Below are positions 27,867 to 55,607 of a DNA stretch of 64,000 bases, one piece after another. A program made the position numbers and the translations under genes. The DNA is from Mariniblastus fucicola (GTDB lineage Bacteria; Planctomycetota; Planctomycetia; Pirellulales; Pirellulaceae): NCBI RefSeq assembly GCF_008087665.1, contig NZ_CP042912.1:1860001-1924000 (forward strand). Direction: 5' to 3'. How positions within the stretch are numbered: the stretch's first letter is position 1; each line of letters opens with the position of its first letter. Under the pieces are notes generated by a model. It did no database searches. It was given only the letters and a program-made list of their open reading frames with translations, and had not been told where the DNA came from.

Positions 27867-27990
27867 CAATACAAGCCCGAAGCGCAAGCGAGTGGTTCGT
27901 CTGCGCGTCGGGACAACACAAACGGTTCGATACGGGAACGTGATGCAATCTTGCGGCTAAACCACTCGCTTGCGCTTCGGGTTTGTACTG
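27867..27990. repeat. REP-like inverted repeat between sigma factor and kinase genes
   Basis: Left arm at 27871-27897 contains GCCCGAAGCGCAAGCGAGTG; right arm at 27959-27985 is its reverse complement with one mismatch in 27 bases. About 60 bases lie between the arms. The sequence type (GAAGCGCAAGCGAG) is the kind of intergenic palindromic repeat that is frequent in planctomycete genomes. Confidence 0.8.
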
Positions 27991-28040: not shown

Positions 28041-31000
28041 ATGCCCAATCATCAACCCAAAACCTGTTTCGAAAAAGAAGTTCTTGCCAACTATCTCGGC
28101 GAGCAACTTTCGGAATCTGAAGAAGCCTCCATTCAGCAACACCTCGACGACTGTCCCAGCTGCCAACAGCAACTCGAACGCGTCGCTGCCGATCAGACGA
28201 TGTGGGAAAGCCTCAAACGACACGTTTCTCTCTCCTCCGACATCTCCACTGAAACAGAAACCTATACGCGACGCCAAACGCTGATCGAGTTTCTTGCTCC
28301 CACCGACGACCCACGCATGCTGGGTCGTCTTGGCAACTACGAGATCTGCGGCTTCATCGGACAGGGCAGCACGGGAATCGTACTCAAAGCCTTCGAACCG
28401 AGCCTCAATCGCTACGTCGCCATCAAGGTCCTTTCGCCGGTTTACTCGTCCAACGGAGCTGCCCGCAAACGATTTGAACGCGAAGGCCGGGCTGTCGCTT
28501 CGGTCGTACACCCCAACATCGTGCCGATCCACGCTGTCGATCAGTTCCGTGGCTTGCCCTACATCGTGATGCAATACGTCCCGGGCCTTTCGCTGCTGCA
28601 GCGGCTCGACAAAGACGGCCCCATTGAAACCGAAGAGGTCGCTCGGGTTGGTTTGCAGGTCGCCAAGGGGCTTGCCGCCGCTCACAAAGTCGGCATCGTG
28701 CACCGTGATATCAAACCGGCCAACGTGATCCTGGAGAACACCATCGAACGCGCCATGGTGACGGATTTTGGGTTGGCCCGCGTCGCCGACGACGCTTCAA
28801 TGACTCGAAGTGGAATGATCGCGGGCACGCCACAGTACATGTCGCCCGAACAGGCTCGTGGCGAAGCGATCGATGCCCGATCAGATTTGTTCAGCTTGGG
28901 CAGTTTGATGTACGCCGCTTGTACTGCTCGGCCGCCGTTCCGCGCCGAAACGATCGTTGGCGTCATCCATCGAGTCTGCAACACGAACCCGCGTCCGATC
29001 CGCGAAGTCAATCCAAAGATCGAACAGTGGATGTGCGACTTCATCGATCGTCTGATCGCGAAGGAGCCGAACAAGCGTTTTCAAACTGCGGACGAACTTT
29101 CATCTTTGTTGGCTCTAGAGCTGGCCTATCTGCAGAACCCAACGCAGACGATCAAGCCCACTCGCGAGTGGCGCGATGTCGAGAACAAGGTTGCTCCAAT
29201 GGGTGAGCGGCAAGGCGCTAGCCGCCGGTACTCTAGCGCAACGGACCGACGGCTAGCGCCTCGTCGCTCACAGCTTCGGATCCGGCTAAAGCCGGTACTA
29301 CAAACCGTTGCCGCATTGGGAGGTATCGTCCTCCTCACCGCCGCCTTCATCCCCGGCGTCGGCGACAAAGTAACCTCTCTCTTCTCCCCATCCAACAACG
29401 CTCCGCTCATTGCTCAATTCGATAGCGATGGCAAGGAGGATGACTCCGCTACGGTCGTCGAGACGACAACCAAAAACGGCGCCGAAATCATCTGGACCAA
29501 ACACGAATCCGACTGGAGTACCGACGCGCTGGTCACCTACGACCAGAAATGGGAGAAGAGCTTCGACGTTGACTCTGACGGAACGCTCAAGCTGGACATC
29601 GATCAAGCCAACGTGCTTGTTCGCCCTGCCGACAACGATGGTTCAGTCACGGTCACCATGATGCGACGAGTCGAAGCGGCCTCATTGGGAAAAGCCAAGA
29701 AGATTTTCGATAACTACAAGCCTCGAATGTCTGTTAGCGACGATGGATTCGAACTCACTTGCGGATCAGAGGAAGAGGATCGCCCTGAATCAGTCGACCG
29801 TATCGTCTACCGCATCGCGATTCCACCAAAGTACAACGCCAACGTCAAACTCAAATCGGGCGACATCACGATCGGAGAACTCGACGGCGACGTGACCACC
29901 AACACCGGGTTTGGAGCCACCAGGATTGGCCACACCAAGGGTAACCTGAAAGTCGTCGGTCGCGGCGGATGCGTCGACATCACGGCCGGTTGCCAGGGCG
30001 GTGCTGACGTCGAAGGCGTCAACGCAGATGTCTACGCAGCCAATATCGGCGAATCATCACAGCTTCGTCTCTCCGGAGGCAACGTGTGGATCGGTGAATG
30101 CGAAGGTGAAATCTACGCTCAAACTTCTGGTGGCGACATCAAAGTCCAAAACGTACTTGGCAAGGTCGCTGGCTTTGCACTCGATGGCGACGTAGAAGTT
30201 CGACTCGACAAATCACCTGCAGCCGGCTGTCGCTTCGGTACAACCGGCGGTGAGCTAAACATGTTGATCAGCAGCAAAGTGGCAGCAACCGTTCGCACGA
30301 CTGAACGTGGCCTCGAAGGATTTGAAGAATCTTCGGATGAGATTGGCATGACAGATCCCTTGTATGATCGAAAACTCAATGGCGGCGGTCAAGTTGTCCA
30401 CGCCAAGGTCGATAGCGGCGAATTCAACTTCGCGGTTCTGGAACTTGAGGAAGGAGCCAGCTTTAGTGACGAAAGTCTCGGAGGAAGCGGCGTTCCTGAT
30501 GGTCTTGGCGGAAGCGGAGGACTGAGCAGCAACACTCGCTACAACTTCCTCGCCGCTCGTGAAAAATTTTCCGCCGTTCCTGGAGCCGGAAAGATCACCA
30601 ACGTCGCCTTGGATCGTGATGGCGACATGGATGGGTATTCGGTCTACTTGCCGGTTTCGTTCGATGGCAACGAAGACAAATATCCCGTGCTGATTTCGCT
30701 GGGAGGATCATGGAACGTCGGCAAAACGATTGACAGCGTCAACAACTGGGGCCTGTCGCGTCTGGTTCGCGATGAAAGCGACCTGTCGAACGAGCGAAAC
30801 AGATTGTTGCTCGATTCCTTCATCATTGTTGCTCCGCACATCAAGAAAGGTCAGTACTCGGATCACGCAGAAACGATCCAGTACATCATCGACACCGTTG
30901 CCGATCAATATCGCGGCGACACCGATCGCGTGTACCTGACGGGCCTGAGCCGCGGCGGTCATGGAACCTGGGGCCTTGCGTCGAAGATGCCTGAGACCTT

Positions 31001-32138
31001 CGCCGCAGTAGTTCCTGTTGCCGGCAGCACCGATTTCGTTGATAGCTTCGAACCGATCGCTGAGACGTCGGTTTGGATCGCCTGCAACACCGGCGACGGC
31101 AACTACGGCGAAACGAAGGCAGCCATCGAAAAGATCGAAGACCTCAGTGACGAAAAGTTCCTGGTTGTCCACGATCCCGACGTCAGCAAAACCGACTATC
31201 TGAACCAGCGTTTTGTGCTCACCGCTCCTCGTCGCGATCATCACGACGCCTGGACCGAACTTTACACGCGAAACGAGTTCTATAAGTGGCTGCTGCAGCA
31301 AACCAGGGACGGGTCAGCTCCTGAAAGTGTCCTTGATTCTGGTCAAGGAAACGAACAAGAGGTCACTGGTGACTCAGTTTTGCCAAAGTCCCCAGGTGTT
31401 TTCAAAACGTTGAAGCTGTTCCTTCCCAACCCAAACGAAAAAGGAAAACTCATTGTTGATATCAATCGTGGCTCTATCGAAGTAGAAGGCTACGACGGCA
31501 AGGAAGTCGTTGTCGATATCCTGATGACTCCGCCGAAATTTCGAACATTCGACGGCGACGATCCCGAAATGAAGACACTCTTCTCGCCAACTTACGACCT
31601 TGATGTTGACCGCGAGAATAACTCTATCAAGTTTGATACCTACAATCAGGATTACGCACTAAACCTTCGCATTAGAGTTCCACGCGAGATCGACTTGTCC
31701 CTGGACGCCTACCGCGACGGTTACATTGAAGCAAAGAATGTGTCCGGGTCGATTCACGCCCACAGTGAGCACAGCGATATCCGTTTGCTCGACATTTCTG
31801 GCTCAGCAACTGCATTCAGTCGCAACGGTAACCTGACAGTCAGCTTTCTCGAGGTTATCGATACTGCAAAGCTGGACTTTGAGTCCTACAACGGAGCAAT
31901 TGACCTGACCTTGCCCGAAGGCATCGCAGCAACCACTGCGATCTCATCCGGAACAGGTTCCTTCCGCACGAGCTTCGATATCGTTTCCATCGAGGAACAA
32001 GACGGTCCTGAATCGATCCTCTCCAAAGTCAAAAAGAACGTCGACGAGTATCAATTTGGCGAGATCAATGGCGGTGGCGTTCCGCTGCGGATCGAAAATG
32101 AGAATGGCAGTGTCGCGGTTCGCAAGACTGCAAACTAA
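28041..32138 (+). CDS. Giant Ser/Thr kinase with zinc finger, adhesin-like repeats and alpha/beta-hydrolase
   Basis: The 1365-residue protein has, in order: an anti-sigma-type zinc finger (HLDDCPSC, Hx3Cx2C, about residues 36-43); a protein kinase at about 98-365 with IGQGSTGIV, VAIKVL, HRDIKPANV and DFGLARV; a basic linker coded by a palindromic repeat (about 388-412); one membrane helix at about 425-440; a DUF4097-like beta-helix segment at about 500-800; an esterase/PHB-depolymerase-like hydrolase at about 850-1080 with nucleophile in TGLSRGGHG and a likely histidine in RRDHHDAW; and a second DUF4097-like segment to the end. AAGGA precedes the ATG. The kinase and zinc finger should be cytoplasmic and the rest extracytoplasmic. 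It probably controls the neighbouring ECF sigma factor; the hydrolase role is unknown. Confidence 0.88.
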   Translation: MPNHQPKTCFEKEVLANYLGEQLSESEEASIQQHLDDCPSCQQQLERVAADQTMWESLKRHVSLSSDISTETETYTRRQTLIEFLAPTDDPRMLGRLGNYEICGFIGQGSTGIVLKAFEPSLNRYVAIKVLSPVYSSNGAARKRFEREGRAVASVVHPNIVPIHAVDQFRGLPYIVMQYVPGLSLLQRLDKDGPIETEEVARVGLQVAKGLAAAHKVGIVHRDIKPANVILENTIERAMVTDFGLARVADDASMTRSGMIAGTPQYMSPEQARGEAIDARSDLFSLGSLMYAACTARPPFRAETIVGVIHRVCNTNPRPIREVNPKIEQWMCDFIDRLIAKEPNKRFQTADELSSLLALELAYLQNPTQTIKPTREWRDVENKVAPMGERQGASRRYSSATDRRLAPRRSQLRIRLKPVLQTVAALGGIVLLTAAFIPGVGDKVTSLFSPSNNAPLIAQFDSDGKEDDSATVVETTTKNGAEIIWTKHESDWSTDALVTYDQKWEKSFDVDSDGTLKLDIDQANVLVRPADNDGSVTVTMMRRVEAASLGKAKKIFDNYKPRMSVSDDGFELTCGSEEEDRPESVDRIVYRIAIPPKYNANVKLKSGDITIGELDGDVTTNTGFGATRIGHTKGNLKVVGRGGCVDITAGCQGGADVEGVNADVYAANIGESSQLRLSGGNVWIGECEGEIYAQTSGGDIKVQNVLGKVAGFALDGDVEVRLDKSPAAGCRFGTTGGELNMLISSKVAATVRTTERGLEGFEESSDEIGMTDPLYDRKLNGGGQVVHAKVDSGEFNFAVLELEEGASFSDESLGGSGVPDGLGGSGGLSSNTRYNFLAAREKFSAVPGAGKITNVALDRDGDMDGYSVYLPVSFDGNEDKYPVLISLGGSWNVGKTIDSVNNWGLSRLVRDESDLSNERNRLLLDSFIIVAPHIKKGQYSDHAETIQYIIDTVADQYRGDTDRVYLTGLSRGGHGTWGLASKMPETFAAVVPVAGSTDFVDSFEPIAETSVWIACNTGDGNYGETKAAIEKIEDLSDEKFLVVHDPDVSKTDYLNQRFVLTAPRRDHHDAWTELYTRNEFYKWLLQQTRDGSAPESVLDSGQGNEQEVTGDSVLPKSPGVFKTLKLFLPNPNEKGKLIVDINRGSIEVEGYDGKEVVVDILMTPPKFRTFDGDDPEMKTLFSPTYDLDVDRENNSIKFDTYNQDYALNLRIRVPREIDLSLDAYRDGYIEAKNVSGSIHAHSEHSDIRLLDISGSATAFSRNGNLTVSFLEVIDTAKLDFESYNGAIDLTLPEGIAATTAISSGTGSFRTSFDIVSIEEQDGPESILSKVKKNVDEYQFGEINGGGVPLRIENENGSVAVRKTAN
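29204..29305 (+). repeat. In-gene palindromic repeat, copy A
   Basis: A 67-bp element at 29204-29270 begins TGAGCGGCAAGGCGCTAGCC and ends with a near-perfect inverted copy of that arm. After 13 bases a second small module, GGCTAAAGCCGGTACTACAA, follows at 29284. Both lie inside the kinase gene without breaking the frame and encode ERQGASRR...RRLAPRRS just before the membrane helix. Confidence 0.85.
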
Positions 32139-38772: not shown

Positions 38773-39425
38773 AAAAGAGCGGCGGCCGATGGGGGATTCG
38801 AATCGCGCTCGCTTTGGCGTGCGTTGTGTTGCTCTATTTCTTTCCACTGTTTCGCGTGGTGGCTCTCAGCGATGTCGATACGCCATCAATTAACAATGGC
38901 GCCGTGCAGTTCGATGCCACGACGTTTGTCGACTCGTTCTGGTCGGACAAACTTCTTCCCGGAGAAAACAAGGCCACGAATATTGCCGAGCTAATCACGG
39001 CGATTGAAAAAGACAAAGCATCGGCAAAGGAATCGTTTGGTCGTACCGTTGGGCTTAGCCGAAGCTATTTCTATTTCGTCAAAGGCACAGGTCGCGTTGT
39101 TAAAGTCAAACGCAACACGATCGGAATTGCAATCGACGAAAGTTCAACCGCGCCGCAAGTTCTGCTGGACATCGGACCCATTTTCGGCAACGTTGTTCGC
39201 GACGGAACGGGCTTGTTGGACGTCAACGATTTTGCGAACTCGCAGGACTTCAACGCGATTTCAACGGAGCTCAACCGGCGCATCGAAGCCGACGTGCAAC
39301 CGGCGCTGCGTGAGAAGGCTATCGCAGGAGCCAACGTTCGCTTCACTGGTTGCGTGCAAATCACCGATGAAAGCTCGGACCTTTCGCCGCTGAGGATCGT
39401 TCCCTTTTTCGCGGAGGTCCCATGA
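38769..39425 (+). CDS. DUF2291-type membrane-anchored protein
   Basis: This 218-residue protein has one N-terminal hydrophobic helix ([20 protein letters not shown]) and a predicted extracytoplasmic domain ([20 protein letters not shown], then [20 protein letters not shown]). This matches DUF2291 proteins, which in other genomes occur within ribose-type ABC transporter operons. GTG start and stop codon both overlap neighbouring genes by 4 bases (rbsB upstream, rbsA downstream), so it is translated as part of the transporter set. It may assist assembly or substrate capture; role unproven. Confidence 0.8.
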
Positions 39426-41077
39426 ACGACTCTTCCGATGTCATTCTTCAAGCCAATTCGATTTCGAAGTCTTTCCCGGGAGTCAAAGCACTCGATGGCG
39501 TTGATTTGACGCTTCGCGCCGGTCGCTTGACGGCCTTGCTGGGCGAAAACGGCGCCGGCAAGTCAACGCTGATGAAAATCCTGGCCGGTGTTCAGCCGCC
39601 AGACGAAGGCGAATTGATCCTTGATGGCGAAGCCGTTCAGTTCTCGAACCCACGCGAAGCACTCGACCGTGGCATCGCGATGATCTACCAGGAATTGAGC
39701 CTCGTTCCTGATCTGACGGTGGCCGAGAACATCTTTCTTGGTCGCGAGCCGGTGCAGCTTGGCGGGGCGATGATCGACTATCGCGAAATGAACCGTCGCA
39801 CCGCCGATTGGATGAAGCTACTGGAGATGGATGTCTCTCCAACGACCAGCGTGGGTAGGCTTCGAGTCGGTCAACAGCAGCTGATTGAGATTGCGCGTGC
39901 TCTTGCCGGTGACGTTCGCGTTTTGATTCTGGACGAACCCACTTCGGCAATTTCAGAGCATGAAACAGAAGTCCTTTTCCGCCGCATCGCGGACTTGAAG
40001 CAACGCGGCGTGGCGATGGTTTACATCACGCACCGCCTTGAGGAACTGGAACGTATCGCCGACGACGTGGCAATCATGCGGGATGGTCAGCTGGTCGGAA
40101 GCGGCGAGTATGGCGTCCGTAGTAAGTCTGAGCGACAAGGCGCTAGCCGTCGGTTCGTTGCAGCGGAAAACCGGCGGCTAGCGCCTGGCCGCTCACCTGT
40201 CGAGCAGCGTCTGGCTGAAGCCGGTACTACAAACAAATTCACCCACGACGAAATGGTCCGCTTGATGGCCGGCCGCGACGTGAAAACTTCCCAACGATCC
40301 TCGTCGGCTACCGAAAATGAAGTGCTTCGCGTGAAAGGCATCTCGTTGCCACATCCCACACGCGTCGATGACTTTCTGGTCAACGATGTCGACCTCCACG
40401 TTCATCGCGGCGAAGTGCTGGGCATCTTCGGCTTGATGGGGGCGGGACGAACCGAACTTTTGGAGTGCGTTTTTGGGTTGCATCATGGCGTTGCCTCGGG
40501 CGACGTTCAGATCGAAGGCAACGATGTGACGATCCGTCGGCCAGGCGAAGCGATCGAACATGGACTTGCTTTGGTCCCGGAAGACCGAAAACGCGACGGA
40601 CTGGTTTTGCCAATGACCGTCGGCGAAAACGCGAGCCTTGCCAGTCTGCGGCGGGCCGAAAAGTTTGGTTTGCTCAGTTCAAAGTCGCTTCGCGATCACG
40701 TTCATCCGTTTGTCGAACGGTTTCGCGTCAAGACACCTTCATTGCGGGAGCGGATCGTCAACTTGAGTGGGGGCAATCAACAGAAAGTCATCCTGGCGAA
40801 ATGGTTGGCGACGCAGCCAAAGGTACTGATGCTCGACGAGCCGACTCGTGGCATCGACGTGCAAGCCAAAAACGAAATCTACGAATTGATTAACGAGCTA
40901 ACGGCCGAAGGTCTGGCTGTCGTGATGGTGTCATCCGAACTGCCGGAAGTGATGGCGGTTTCGGATCGCATTCTTGTGATGTGTGAGGGTCGTGCTACGC
41001 AAGAGTTTTCTCGCGACCAGGCCACTGACGAAAAGATATTACATGCCGCATTGCCAGGGAGGGCCGCGACGATATGA
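39422..41077 (+). CDS. rbsA: Ribose ABC transporter double ATPase, with repeat-derived insertion
   Basis: RbsA powers ribose import. It has two ATPase halves. The first carries GENGAGKSTL, signature region LRVGQQQLIEIARAL and Walker B VLILDEPTSAI. The second carries the degenerate P-loop GLMGAGRTELL usual for RbsA, LSGGNQQKVILAKWL and VLMLDEPTRGID. The length of 551 is about 50 more than usual. The excess lies at about residues 230-272, where a palindromic repeat (40129-40234) adds ERQGASRR...RRLAPGRS between the first half and DEMVRLMAGRDV. The frame is intact, so the protein is probably functional. ATGA overlaps join it to the DUF2291 gene and to rbsC. Confidence 0.93.
   Translation: MNDSSDVILQANSISKSFPGVKALDGVDLTLRAGRLTALLGENGAGKSTLMKILAGVQPPDEGELILDGEAVQFSNPREALDRGIAMIYQELSLVPDLTVAENIFLGREPVQLGGAMIDYREMNRRTADWMKLLEMDVSPTTSVGRLRVGQQQLIEIARALAGDVRVLILDEPTSAISEHETEVLFRRIADLKQRGVAMVYITHRLEELERIADDVAIMRDGQLVGSGEYGVRSKSERQGASRRFVAAENRRLAPGRSPVEQRLAEAGTTNKFTHDEMVRLMAGRDVKTSQRSSSATENEVLRVKGISLPHPTRVDDFLVNDVDLHVHRGEVLGIFGLMGAGRTELLECVFGLHHGVASGDVQIEGNDVTIRRPGEAIEHGLALVPEDRKRDGLVLPMTVGENASLASLRRAEKFGLLSSKSLRDHVHPFVERFRVKTPSLRERIVNLSGGNQQKVILAKWLATQPKVLMLDEPTRGIDVQAKNEIYELINELTAEGLAVVMVSSELPEVMAVSDRILVMCEGRATQEFSRDQATDEKILHAALPGRAATI
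40129..40234 (+). repeat. In-gene palindromic repeat, copy B
   Basis: A 67-bp element at 40129-40195 has arms TGAGCGACAAGGCGCTAGCC and its near inverse; 51 of 67 bases match copy A by hand count, with the arms most alike. The second module GGCTGAAGCCGGTACTACAA follows at 40213 after 17 bases. It is read in the same protein frame as copy A (ERQGASRR...RRLAP). Confidence 0.85.
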
Positions 41078-48359: not shown

Positions 48360-48935
48360 GGAGTGACGTCAGCTTCCGTTTCTTCGACCAAGCCCACGTG
48401 GACATCGGGCTCGACCGTCGCTGGCGAAGAAATCGACTGATCGGAAACGATCGCGACCGAGGCTACAACAAGTTTTCGGCTCGGAAAATTTAAGAAGCAG
48501 TTTTTGGGGCCGAAAACCAATCCCAACCCGAATAGGTTGTGATTCAATTTCTCCGTTCACCGCGGACTTCGCCTATGGGGAACTGATTGGTTTTGGCGAT
48601 AGCCACGGTTTCGCGTCAAAACGGCTCGCCTTCAAGATCAGTAAGCCCTCGCGCTTCGGGATTGGCGGCATGCCCAGTCTTCATTGAACGGTATTGAGGG
48701 TTAACTCGGATCGCGATTCGAGTCCGAAAAACAATGACTGATGGCTTCAACCGCGGGAATTGAGCCAAATAGCCAAGCCATTTGCTTATCCCGGCTAAAA
48801 AAAGTTGAAATTTTCCTGAGGGGCACCGCGTTCTTTCTCCATATGTGGACGTGGCGCGAGTTCATTGCTCGTGCAGGAGCAGGCCGAAAATCCTCAACAG
48901 AGTAGGCGCAAACAACCACAAACTGGGATAATCCA
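48360..48935. other. Intergenic region, no gene recognised
   Basis: This gap of about 575 bases follows the ribose/DUF1593 chain. CCCTCGCGCTTCGGG at about 48645 is a decayed version of the REP arm seen at 27959. No terminator with a clean T tract and no convincing coding sequence was found; the end of the long operon and the promoter of the next gene must lie here. Confidence 0.4.
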
Positions 48936-50408
48936 ATGTTTAAGAAAAAAATGCAACTTCGGGCCCTCATCGCCCCCACACTGTTTGTCACTCTTGCGTG
49001 TGCTTTCCAGCCCGCTCAAGCACAGGAAAAAACCCAGTTCTTCTTCGCGGAAGATGTGTCGGTCGGTCCGCCGCGGGTCAACCATGTACCGCGGCAGGCA
49101 ACGCCAAAAACCAAAGCCGCAGCGGAAGACTTTCAGGATCGCATTGGCGGTGCAAGTTCGGTCAGTTTTGAGAACTTCGGCGTAGACGAAGACGGTTCAA
49201 AGCTGAACGCCATCTCAGATTTCCATCTTGAGTTCTCGGGGGGCGTGACTGCGGATCTAACGGGTATTAACGGCGTTGGCGTTGTTCTTGATCCCTCCAA
49301 GACCTCTTGGGGAAATTTCCCGACGCATGGCAAAAAATTTCTGTCAATCATGTCGAAGGAAGAGGACCCTAATGCGGATGCCACCGCGTACGCAACGATC
49401 AAGTTCAGCACGCCCCAGGCGGCGTTCGGTTTCTGCGCAACGGACATTGAATCCAACAGGTTGATCATCGAACTGCTCCACACGGATGGAACAACCGAAA
49501 AATATACGGCACCCGTTACGATTCCACAGAATTCAGGGGGTTGCAACTTCATCGGGATGATCAACACCAGCCGCCCATTCGCGGGCGTCCGGTTTATCAA
49601 TGCAGGAAAAGGTAAAGAAGGTTTCGGTTTCGACGAAATGATGATCGCCGAACCAAAACTCGTTGAGATCGGCGCTGTGATTATGGAGTGCACCGGATAC
49701 TATGAGCGTGGTGAGTACGAAAAGTGCGTCAGCCACTACGAGAAAACGATTGAGAGCTTCCTGCGGAGCACAAAAATCACTCAGGAAAACAGAACGCGTC
49801 TTGAGCTGGCGATTAAGGAAACGCGAAATACCAGTATCACAGCTCAAACTCGCTGCACCATCCTTCGCAGTGCATTCTACGCAATGCAGTACTCAGAGAC
49901 TTGCGGGGGAATCGTAACAACTGCAATCAGCGAAGCTTCAACGTTCTACCAGAGCAAGAACTATGAAGGTTGCTGGTCTTCCTACGAAAAGTACGCTTAC
50001 GAGATGCTGCAAACCTCTTCGATTTCGGTTGTCGACCGTCAACGCCTCGAAATGGCACTCGCCTACGAAGGCAGCTGGGAAACTCGCTGCACGATGATGA
50101 AGCAGACTTTCGAATACATCAACACGGAGATCCACAACACGAGCCTGTTCCTGCAACAGTCGCAGAGCATCGCTCTCCAGTGGAGCAGGTACTTCGTCGT
50201 GAGCATGGATGTCGAGCAAGGACGAGCGATCCAAATTGAGTCCTCCAACGACGGCGGACTCACGTGGACGGTCAATGAAAAGTTCACCAGTACCGACACT
50301 TCGCATCGCTACATTGACTACTCGAACGATTACATGAACAGTGCTCACCGTATCTATCGTGCCCAGTACGTTGATAGCGGCTACATAAAAGCGCAGGTCT
50401 ATAACTAG
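48936..50408 (+). CDS. Secreted protein with duplicated cysteine-containing helical repeats
   Basis: The 490-residue protein has a signal peptide (ending QPAQAQE). Residues about 60-245 form a beta-rich domain of a type seen in exported lectin-like proteins (ISDFHLEFSGGVTADLTGIN, AYATIKFSTPQAAFGFCATD, EGFGFDEMMIAEP). Residues about 250-390 are two helical repeats that align with each other: YERGEYEKCVSHYEKTIES...RLELAI...TRCTILRSAF and YQSKNYEGCWSSYEKYAYE...RLEMAL...TRCTMMKQTF, each with one early and one late cysteine. I do not know the family. A strong terminator follows 30 bases after the stop. Confidence 0.75.
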   Translation: MFKKKMQLRALIAPTLFVTLACAFQPAQAQEKTQFFFAEDVSVGPPRVNHVPRQATPKTKAAAEDFQDRIGGASSVSFENFGVDEDGSKLNAISDFHLEFSGGVTADLTGINGVGVVLDPSKTSWGNFPTHGKKFLSIMSKEEDPNADATAYATIKFSTPQAAFGFCATDIESNRLIIELLHTDGTTEKYTAPVTIPQNSGGCNFIGMINTSRPFAGVRFINAGKGKEGFGFDEMMIAEPKLVEIGAVIMECTGYYERGEYEKCVSHYEKTIESFLRSTKITQENRTRLELAIKETRNTSITAQTRCTILRSAFYAMQYSETCGGIVTTAISEASTFYQSKNYEGCWSSYEKYAYEMLQTSSISVVDRQRLEMALAYEGSWETRCTMMKQTFEYINTEIHNTSLFLQQSQSIALQWSRYFVVSMDVEQGRAIQIESSNDGGLTWTVNEKFTSTDTSHRYIDYSNDYMNSAHRIYRAQYVDSGYIKAQVYN

Positions 50409-50470: not shown

Positions 50471-51060
50471 GACGGATATTCTTTGTCCCGTTTGCGGATG
50501 GGTGTTTGCGATATTGGCCGTTGAGCGTTTGCCCGGTTTCATACGTTAAACCTGGCTACGTTCTTCGGCCAATATCCTTTTGCGCTCAATCAGTTGACGA
50601 CCATGTCCCAGAGTCGTCCCGCGCACAACACAGATCGCAAAAGATCGATTTTCCAATGAAATCGAACGCGGGTCAGCTTTGCCTGACACCCAGAATCGCC
50701 GCGGCGGTCGGCATAAGTATCGAGGCTGACCAAGCGAACTTCGGCAACGGAAACTTCAATCATCCGCAACGCAACAGTGGCTCCAAATCGTGGTGGGTCG
50801 ACTCGAGCGGAGACGAAGTCACATTTGATGAAAAACTTGAAGGCGATCACTGGATCATGCGATCGCCAAACACCAGTTACGACATCGAGTCTCACTTCCT
50901 TCCCACGCACGCCGCGATCAAAGTGCTCAAAGCGGGTCACGCTTGGCTGCACCGATTAACGCTGCAGAGTAGAATACACAATGCTTCCAGTTCGCGACAC
51001 CGACTGGCTTAAGTCGGAGCCGTGTGAATTCCGCCTGAAGGCGGGACTACAATTCGCATA
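50471..51060 (+). other. Gap holding a doubtful open frame (50506-51012) and a small repeat
   Basis: The open frame codes for 168 residues without a good ribosome site. Its second half (SKSWWVDSSGDEVTFDEKLE, GDHWIMRSPNTSYDIES) looks more protein-like than its first half, so it may be the remnant of a gene. An antisense frame also exists, so coding is unproven. At 51033-51054 GCCTGAAGGCGGGACTACAA is a third copy of the short module that accompanies the palindromes in the kinase and rbsA genes. Confidence 0.35.
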
Positions 51061-54450: not shown

Positions 54451-55332
54451 ATGCGAATTTGTTTCACTGGCGGCTCGGGAAAAGCGGGACGCCACGTTGT
54501 GGCTCACCTTGCCGCCCAAGGCCACACGGTTCTGAACCTTGATTTAGTGCCCGCGAACATCAAAGGCGTCTGGGACATGACGGCTGATTTGACAGACACC
54601 GGCCAAGTGTTTTCTGCACTCTCGGGAATCGTTGGCTTCGACGAACTCGATTGCGAACCCGGAGTTCCCAAATTTGATGCTGTCGTGCACTTTGCCGCCA
54701 TCCCGCGAATTCAGCTGCGCCCGGATCCCGATTGTTACCGCATCAATACGGCTTCGACCTACAACGTATTGGAAGCCGCGATCAAGCTGGGCATTCCCAA
54801 ATTACTGTTCGCGTCATCGGAAACGACTTATGGTATCTGCTTTGCCGACGGCGAAGTCAAACCTGACTATATCCCGGTCGATGAAGAACACTCAACCGTT
54901 CCGCACGATGCCTACGCGATGTCGAAAGTTTGCAACGAGGTTTGCGGCAAGGGCTTTCATGCACGGTCGGGCACCGACATCTATGCCTTGCGGATTAACA
55001 ACGTGATCGAGCCGCACGAGTATGAAGCCTATGCTCCGCAGTGGAAAGCCAACGCAGCGTGCCGCCGCCGCAACATCTTCGCCTACATCGACACTCGCGA
55101 TCTGAGCCATTTTGTCGAGTGCGCTTTGGCGACCGATGGACTGGGCTATCAGGTTTTCAACGTCGCCAATCCCGATTCGTCGGTCGGCATGCCCAGCGCC
55201 GACGTGATCCAGAACTTTTACGCCGACGTGCCACAGAAACGCGAGTTTGGCGAGTATGAAACGTTCTATTCGATCGACAAATCCCGCGAGTTGCTAGGAT
55301 TCGATCCGCAGCCGCGTTGGCGAGACGACTGA
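54451..55332 (+). CDS. NAD-dependent epimerase/dehydratase, uronate-dehydrogenase-like SDR
   Basis: The 293-residue extended SDR starts with the nucleotide site FTGGSGKAGRHVVAHLA, keeps D in NLDLVP after beta-2 (NAD preference), has VVHFAAIPR, the active-site serine in LFASSETTYG and YAMSK (YxxxK). Length and the AGGKAG-like N-terminus recall uronate dehydrogenases, which oxidise galacturonate or glucuronate. Next to a pectate lyase that would be sensible, but the call within the SDR family is inference; a UDP-sugar epimerase is possible. Confidence 0.82.
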   Translation: MRICFTGGSGKAGRHVVAHLAAQGHTVLNLDLVPANIKGVWDMTADLTDTGQVFSALSGIVGFDELDCEPGVPKFDAVVHFAAIPRIQLRPDPDCYRINTASTYNVLEAAIKLGIPKLLFASSETTYGICFADGEVKPDYIPVDEEHSTVPHDAYAMSKVCNEVCGKGFHARSGTDIYALRINNVIEPHEYEAYAPQWKANAACRRRNIFAYIDTRDLSHFVECALATDGLGYQVFNVANPDSSVGMPSADVIQNFYADVPQKREFGEYETFYSIDKSRELLGFDPQPRWRDD

Positions 55333-55373
55333 ACCTGAATTTCGCCGGCCAGCATGTGTTTTTTGAGTTCGCG

Positions 55374-55577
55374 GCTGTGTCGTGCATGTCTATGTGCGCA
55401 ACATACTGTCAATCCTGTTCATCCTGTCTAAATTCCGAGCATGTCGGCTCATTTGTTTTTGTGACAAGATTTACAGGATGAACAGGATCAGAGCGCGGCT
55501 GTCACGTGGATGTCTTTGTGCGTAACATCCTGTCAATCCTGTTTATTCTGTCTAAATTCCGAGCATGTCGCCGCGAG
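55374..55577. repeat. Direct-inverted-direct intergenic repeat
   Basis: Two direct copies of about 75 bases (55374-55456 and 55499-55577, offset 124) share TGTCAATCCTGTT and TAAATTCCGAGCATGTCG. Between them, at 55461-55499, lies an inverted copy of the core (ACAGGATGAACAGGAT). The CCTGTTCATCCTGT core is of a widespread intergenic repeat type. Confidence 0.8.
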
Positions 55578-55607
55578 TTTTTTGATTTAAGCCGGGCGGC
55601 TTGGGCG

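Follow-up and report, generated by a model that had tools for sequence, protein, structure and literature searches.

Within the window analysed here, a 64,000-nt stretch of the Mariniblastus fucicola genome (to whose positions the coordinates below refer unless a genome position is given), two genes carry the same palindrome as part of their coding sequence. A sequence-only reading of this DNA had noted that both copies are translated in the same frame, and the question raised by this locus is whether that agreement reflects a use for the encoded peptide or a property of the palindrome itself. The palindrome, called module A, is indeed present in a protein kinase gene (29204-29270) and in rbsA (40129-40195), and its translations, ERQGASRRYSSATDRRLAPRRS in the kinase and ERQGASRRFVAAENRRLAPGRS in RbsA, confirm the ERQGASRR...RRLAP reading, stop-free and basic, in both genes. 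The two in-gene palindromes have fold z-scores of -5.6 and -6.8. The repeat is far above chance in the window: AGGCGCTAGCC occurs four times with at most one mismatch, against 0.57 expected, and none of 100 shuffles reaches four. A second module, B, follows A after 13 nt in the kinase gene and 17 nt in rbsA; both gaps had been read correctly, and A and B are, as had been proposed, separable. The features are:

28041-32138, plus strand: host gene 1, a Ser/Thr protein kinase of 1365 aa (open reading frame with domain matches)
29204-29270, minus strand: module A of the kinase gene, in which two REP-like hairpins form an inverted 67-nt dimer; its orientation is opposite to that of the copy in rbsA
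29204-29228, plus strand: its left arm, TGAGCGGCAAGGCGCTAGCCGCCGG, a GC-type hairpin CGGC-AA-GGC-GCTA-GCC-GCCG
29246-29270, minus strand: its right arm, TGAGCGACGAGGCGCTAGCCGTCGG on the minus strand, an AT-type hairpin CGAC...GTCG
29282-29305, minus strand: module B of the kinase gene, a GTAG-tagged REP dimer half, GTTTGTAGTACCGGCTTTAGCCGG (palindrome 29284-29305)
39422-41077, plus strand: host gene 2, an rbsA-type sugar ABC transporter ATPase of 551 aa with two ABC_tran domains
40115-40234, plus strand: the whole rbsA insert, exactly 120 nt or 40 codons, with ends GTCCGTAGT...ACTACAAAC
40129-40195, plus strand: module A of rbsA, 67 nt, AT-type arm first
40211-40234, minus strand: module B of rbsA, GTTTGTAGTACCGGCTTCAGCCAG (palindrome 40213-40234)

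The inserts in RbsA and in the kinase

Comparison with homologues delimits the rbsA insert. Among 76 RbsA homologues surveyed, 71 allowed measurement of the spacing between the DG and M.GR motifs, which is 26 residues in 61 of the 71, 27 in nine and 53 in one; in the RbsA studied here it is 66 residues. Removal of 120 nt, best at 40115-40234, brings back the homologue spacing with no residue lost, and the nearest homologue found (G036, 61-62% identity) is without a counterpart of the insert. The ends of the insert are imperfectly inverted with respect to each other and carry a GTAG tag, and the cut point is ambiguous by about ±3 nt. Module B is translated here as RLAEAGTTN. In an AlphaFold model of RbsA built on an alignment of 36 sequences (mean pLDDT 86.5), both ATPase domains are confident but most of the insert (residues 231-270) has pLDDT values of 41-56, so that the insert is predicted to be disordered. 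The solved structures that match RbsA are general ABC ATPases only and are uninformative on the insert.

The kinase has a zinc-finger-like N terminus, a Pkinase domain at residues 100-350, the insert at about 389-422 and a transmembrane helix from about 423; there are also matches to DUF4097 and weak matches to esterase/peptidase domains. Modules A and B, the latter translated as RLKPVLQT, make up an insert of 102 nt (34 codons) that is in frame in a gene that is otherwise intact. Kinase homologues were taken from the genome search, and most align over the kinase part only: the alignment is good over the kinase domain and the linker is variable. (A contig search for kinase relatives confirmed none.) In the closest homologue (G077, 60-61% identity) the linker from the end of the domain to the transmembrane helix has about 26 residues vs about 59 here, an excess that comes close to the 34 codons of A plus B.

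The insert has a net charge of +8 directly before the transmembrane helix, and the preceding 25 residues have +1. Thus, the positively charged stretch noted earlier is there, and a role for it in orienting the protein is possible; such a role is nevertheless not required, because homologues that lack the insert are also basic over a short juxtamembrane stretch at this place (TPTRKKRSGF, for example).

What modules A and B are

Each arm of A can fold on itself into a 7-bp stem with an AA bulge (consensus TGAG-CGRC-AA-GGC-GCTA-GCC-GYCG). Across 63 arms, arm positions 6 and 21 form a G-C pair in 53, an A-T pair in eight, a G-T pair in one and an A-C mismatch in one. Since the dimers of class II (defined below) partner an AT arm with a GC arm, these changes compensate within an arm and not between arms, which argues that A is a head-to-head dimer of two hairpins; self-folding arms with compensatory changes are what is expected of REP-like hairpins. 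The foot of the arms is (G)TGAG in nearly all cases rather than a GTAG or CGTC tag, and A is therefore not filed under the GTAG/CGTC REP families. At both A copies, Rfam gave no match to a known RNA family.

Module B, on the other hand, has the features of a GTAG REP. The tag stands beside a short G+C-rich hairpin (GTAGTACCGGCTTTAGCCGG in the kinase gene, GTAGTACCGGCTTCAGCCAG in rbsA), and the module is multi-copy, with 14 matches of up to three mismatches at about 12 places in the genome, and forms inverted (head-to-head) pairs at genome positions 3168026/3168066 and 5449397/5449437. The window holds one further copy, which has no A nearby:

51031-51054, minus strand: a solitary B-type GTAG REP, AATTGTAGTCCCGCCTTCAGGCGG

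There are about 41 copies of A in the genome (a single contig of 6.57 Mb), and they are mostly intergenic. About 30 of these, class I, form the centre of a 131-bp element; its terminal inverted repeats GGCACTGTTTGG, its CTAG/CCAG-like tetranucleotide flanks and its lack of coding capacity are typical of a MITE. Eight copies with other flanks, including both copies in the window, make up class II; the flanks of the copies at 29204 and 40129 are without the class I terminal inverted repeats. (Class I elements often lie at the end of a gene, as at L073, L076, L083, L084 and similar loci, where the CTAG target appears to supply a TAG stop codon.) Shorter MITEs of 82-83 bp have A collapsed between AGCG or CGCT direct repeats, which shows the instability typical of palindromes. 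These short forms were considered as empty sites of a pre-existing MITE into which A had inserted, but they are collapse products, so that A came first. Deletion forms of the MITE are present at L351-L357, L361, L365 and L366, and still shorter ones are deleted between TGTTTGG repeats.

A match to A with E <= 0.01 was obtained in 33 of the 100 genomes searched, that of M. fucicola counted; the weaker of these matches may be due to chance. In relatives, the inverted repeats that surround A are of several kinds (GTAGGGCCGGTTCC...CCGGCC in G077, GTGGACAGCGCCA in G024 and G027, GTAAGTATTCGCCGAAGA in G074), and in another genus a GTAG REP flanks A on both sides (L114, L175). A tentative and rather doubtful reading is that A is a self-standing palindromic module found across many genera of the family and order, which would serve as hairpin cargo of separate mobile-element families: repeatedly the core of unrelated MITEs and of GTAG REP dimers, and occasionally carried in frame into proteins.

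Number and setting of the copies

Whether a copy lies within a gene was judged by codon preference on each side together with spanning open reading frames. By this measure, a clear coding frame is present on both sides of 2 of the approximately 41 A copies, both of them in the window. At genome position 5430238, a third candidate runs into the 5' end of an open reading frame; it precedes a signal peptide, and the true start of the gene probably lies downstream of it. In another genome (G012, L126) an A arm precedes the probable start of a long open reading frame, a case judged from translation only. A lone A arm at about 1503-1528 of L128 (G050:C14) lies in an open frame of 786 codons, in the VSGKALAAG frame, and is a possible in-gene case.

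The class II copies are unevenly distributed. Five of the eight fall within 205 kb (1740-1945 kb of the genome, G000:C1), with p ~0.0004 under a uniform model and p ~0.001 by label permutation. A distance of 10.9 kb separates the two in-gene copies, and only 11 of 820 copy pairs are so close together (p ~0.013). Within 150 nt of an A copy, B is found in two cases, both in the window, vs 0.02 expected; a third, at 1740 kb, is just past this limit. Simple independent insertion does not explain the clustering of class II and of the in-gene copies, and local spread is one possibility.

(Two other features of the window were observed. There is an Rfam match to DUF805b RNA, RF02914, at 48874-48908 on the plus strand, with 37.2 bits vs a gathering threshold of 35.6, just before the open reading frame 48936-50408. 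In addition, two 90-nt direct repeats at 55370-55459 and 55494-55583, 84% identical and 124 nt apart, lie right behind the open reading frame 54451-55332.)

Why both genes use the same frame

The ERQ reading is common to both genes, as originally described, but the frame bias that this seemed to imply is absent: among 75 A dimers, it is the length modulo 3 that decides which frame is free of stops. With a length of 0 modulo 3 (66 nt and similar), the VSGKALAA frame alone is open; with 1 modulo 3 (67 nt), it is the ERQGASRR frame alone; and with 2 modulo 3 (68 nt) it is both, apart from three dimers without an open frame. Consequently, the ERQ frame is forced in both window copies, because both are 67 nt long.

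Orientation does not disturb this agreement. Compared with the rbsA copy, that of the kinase gene scores 72.5 bits on the minus strand and 66.2 on the plus strand, and its AT arm is on the right, that of rbsA on the left. Thus, the two A copies are inserted in opposite orientations, each gene reads the strand of the element that the other does not, and a bias of strand is not supported. As A is palindromic, the ERQ...RRLAP frame of a 67-nt copy is open on both strands and yields a nearly identical peptide from either. It is then the symmetry of the element, its length and the exclusion of stops that make the two genes agree in frame. The 4-nt difference between the two A-to-B gaps puts module B in a different frame in each gene.

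Origin and survival of the in-gene copies

Taken together, these observations argue strongly that the in-gene copies are survivors: non-autonomous hairpin palindromes tolerated in flexible linkers, whose shared frame very probably comes from their length and not from a function in the protein. Module A would be a non-autonomous, hairpin-forming mobile repeat. In its usual intergenic setting it would either make up the core of a MITE or lie beside or within a GTAG REP dimer. Two composites of A and B would have entered coding frames at flexible linkers, in RbsA the one joining its two ATPase domains and in the kinase the one leading from the kinase domain to the membrane helix. Only insertions that kept the frame and were free of stops would survive, and surviving copies of 67 nt would look alike whichever way they were inserted. 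The encoded peptides may then be tolerated basic loops, probably disordered. We infer that transposition was the source of the inserts, that selection acted against frame-breaking insertions, and that the peptides have no function in the protein.

The opposite reading, in which the proteins benefit from the basic ERQGASRR...RRLAP peptide (as a topology signal or a charged linker) and its frame has been selected, appears very improbable. The nearly identical basic peptide in both in-gene copies and the charge of the kinase insert directly before its helix speak for it, but length by itself forces the frame, the same peptide is present in RbsA at a point where that protein is not a membrane protein, and kinase homologues keep basic juxtamembrane residues without the insert. 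Moreover, only 2 of the approximately 41 copies are in genes, and a peptide search in 149 genomes of the family listed none besides these in an open frame of similar length (in the richest genome, G077, 58 of 638 candidates were scored). It is also improbable, though somewhat less so, that a single insertion, followed by local copying or gene conversion within 1.74-1.95 Mb, produced both in-gene copies. The clustering of class II copies and the common orientation of B with respect to the gene are consistent with such copying; against it, A is flipped relative to B between the two copies, and their spacers, their loops and the gap to B all differ.

As to what moves the modules, a REP-associated tyrosine transposase (RAYT) encoded in the genome could spread A and B. 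The GTAG tag and head-to-head dimers of B, the REP-like hairpins of the A arms and the presence of seven Y1_Tnp genes all fit this proposal, which is a real possibility but on balance unlikely. A search for an associated transposase elsewhere in the genome had been suggested; neither A nor B lies within 1.5 kb of any of the seven genes. At 30 Y1_Tnp loci of relatives, 1.5 kb on each side contained no B and a single A arm, about 1.5 kb away; B is thus near none of the 37 loci, and at none of them is a RAYT gene flanked by the same REP. In addition, A is without a GTAG or CGTC tag, and the sole Y1_Tnp gene with inverted flanking REPs has a different one. This gene (genome position 5122333-5122554) has the inverted, GTGG-tagged REP GTGGCTGCGGCGTCTCGCCGCAG on both sides (L054, ~1358 and ~2157; G000:C1, ~5122.2-5123.0 kb), and likely forms with it a REP-transposase unit of its own, unrelated to A and B. 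Separately, a 31-nt inverted repeat, CAATACAAGCCCGAAGCGCAAGCGAGTGGTT, is present in the window at 27867-27897 and 27960-27990, in intergenic DNA; a similar motif lies beside a Y1_Tnp gene in L053 and in L106.

Comparison with known systems

GTAG/CGTC REPs are hairpin units that often form head-to-head dimers and are occasionally intragenic, where they encode 20-30 aa; they are also reported in Planctomycetes, with R. baltica listed, and genes broken by them are thought to be purged (Di Nocera et al. 2013, PMC3733652). The same paper also describes Rickettsia RPEs within open reading frames and REPs that are part of longer palindromes. Compared with the GTAG/CGTC REPs, A differs in its TGAG foot, B alone has GTAG, and here A and B form a composite. 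The arrangement resembles REPINs in having two inverted REP hairpins per unit and GTAG on B, but no RAYT gene adjoining A or B was found. About 30 copies of A share the architecture of the 131-bp MITE, whose ends the two window copies are without; no autonomous partner was identified.

In mode of insertion, the copies are like the Rickettsia RPEs, in which a palindrome likewise lies in frame in genes that are probably still functional; here, the inserts of 120 nt in rbsA and 102 nt in the kinase gene are in frame in otherwise intact genes. RPEs, however, occupy many genes of one genome, in contrast to the two copies seen here. To this body of work the locus adds two clear in-gene cases, one of them with an exactly defined insert of 40 residues, and a REP-like module found within several kinds of outer inverted repeat. 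It also shows that an apparent frame preference of an in-gene palindrome can arise from length and symmetry alone, a caution against inferring function from such a preference.
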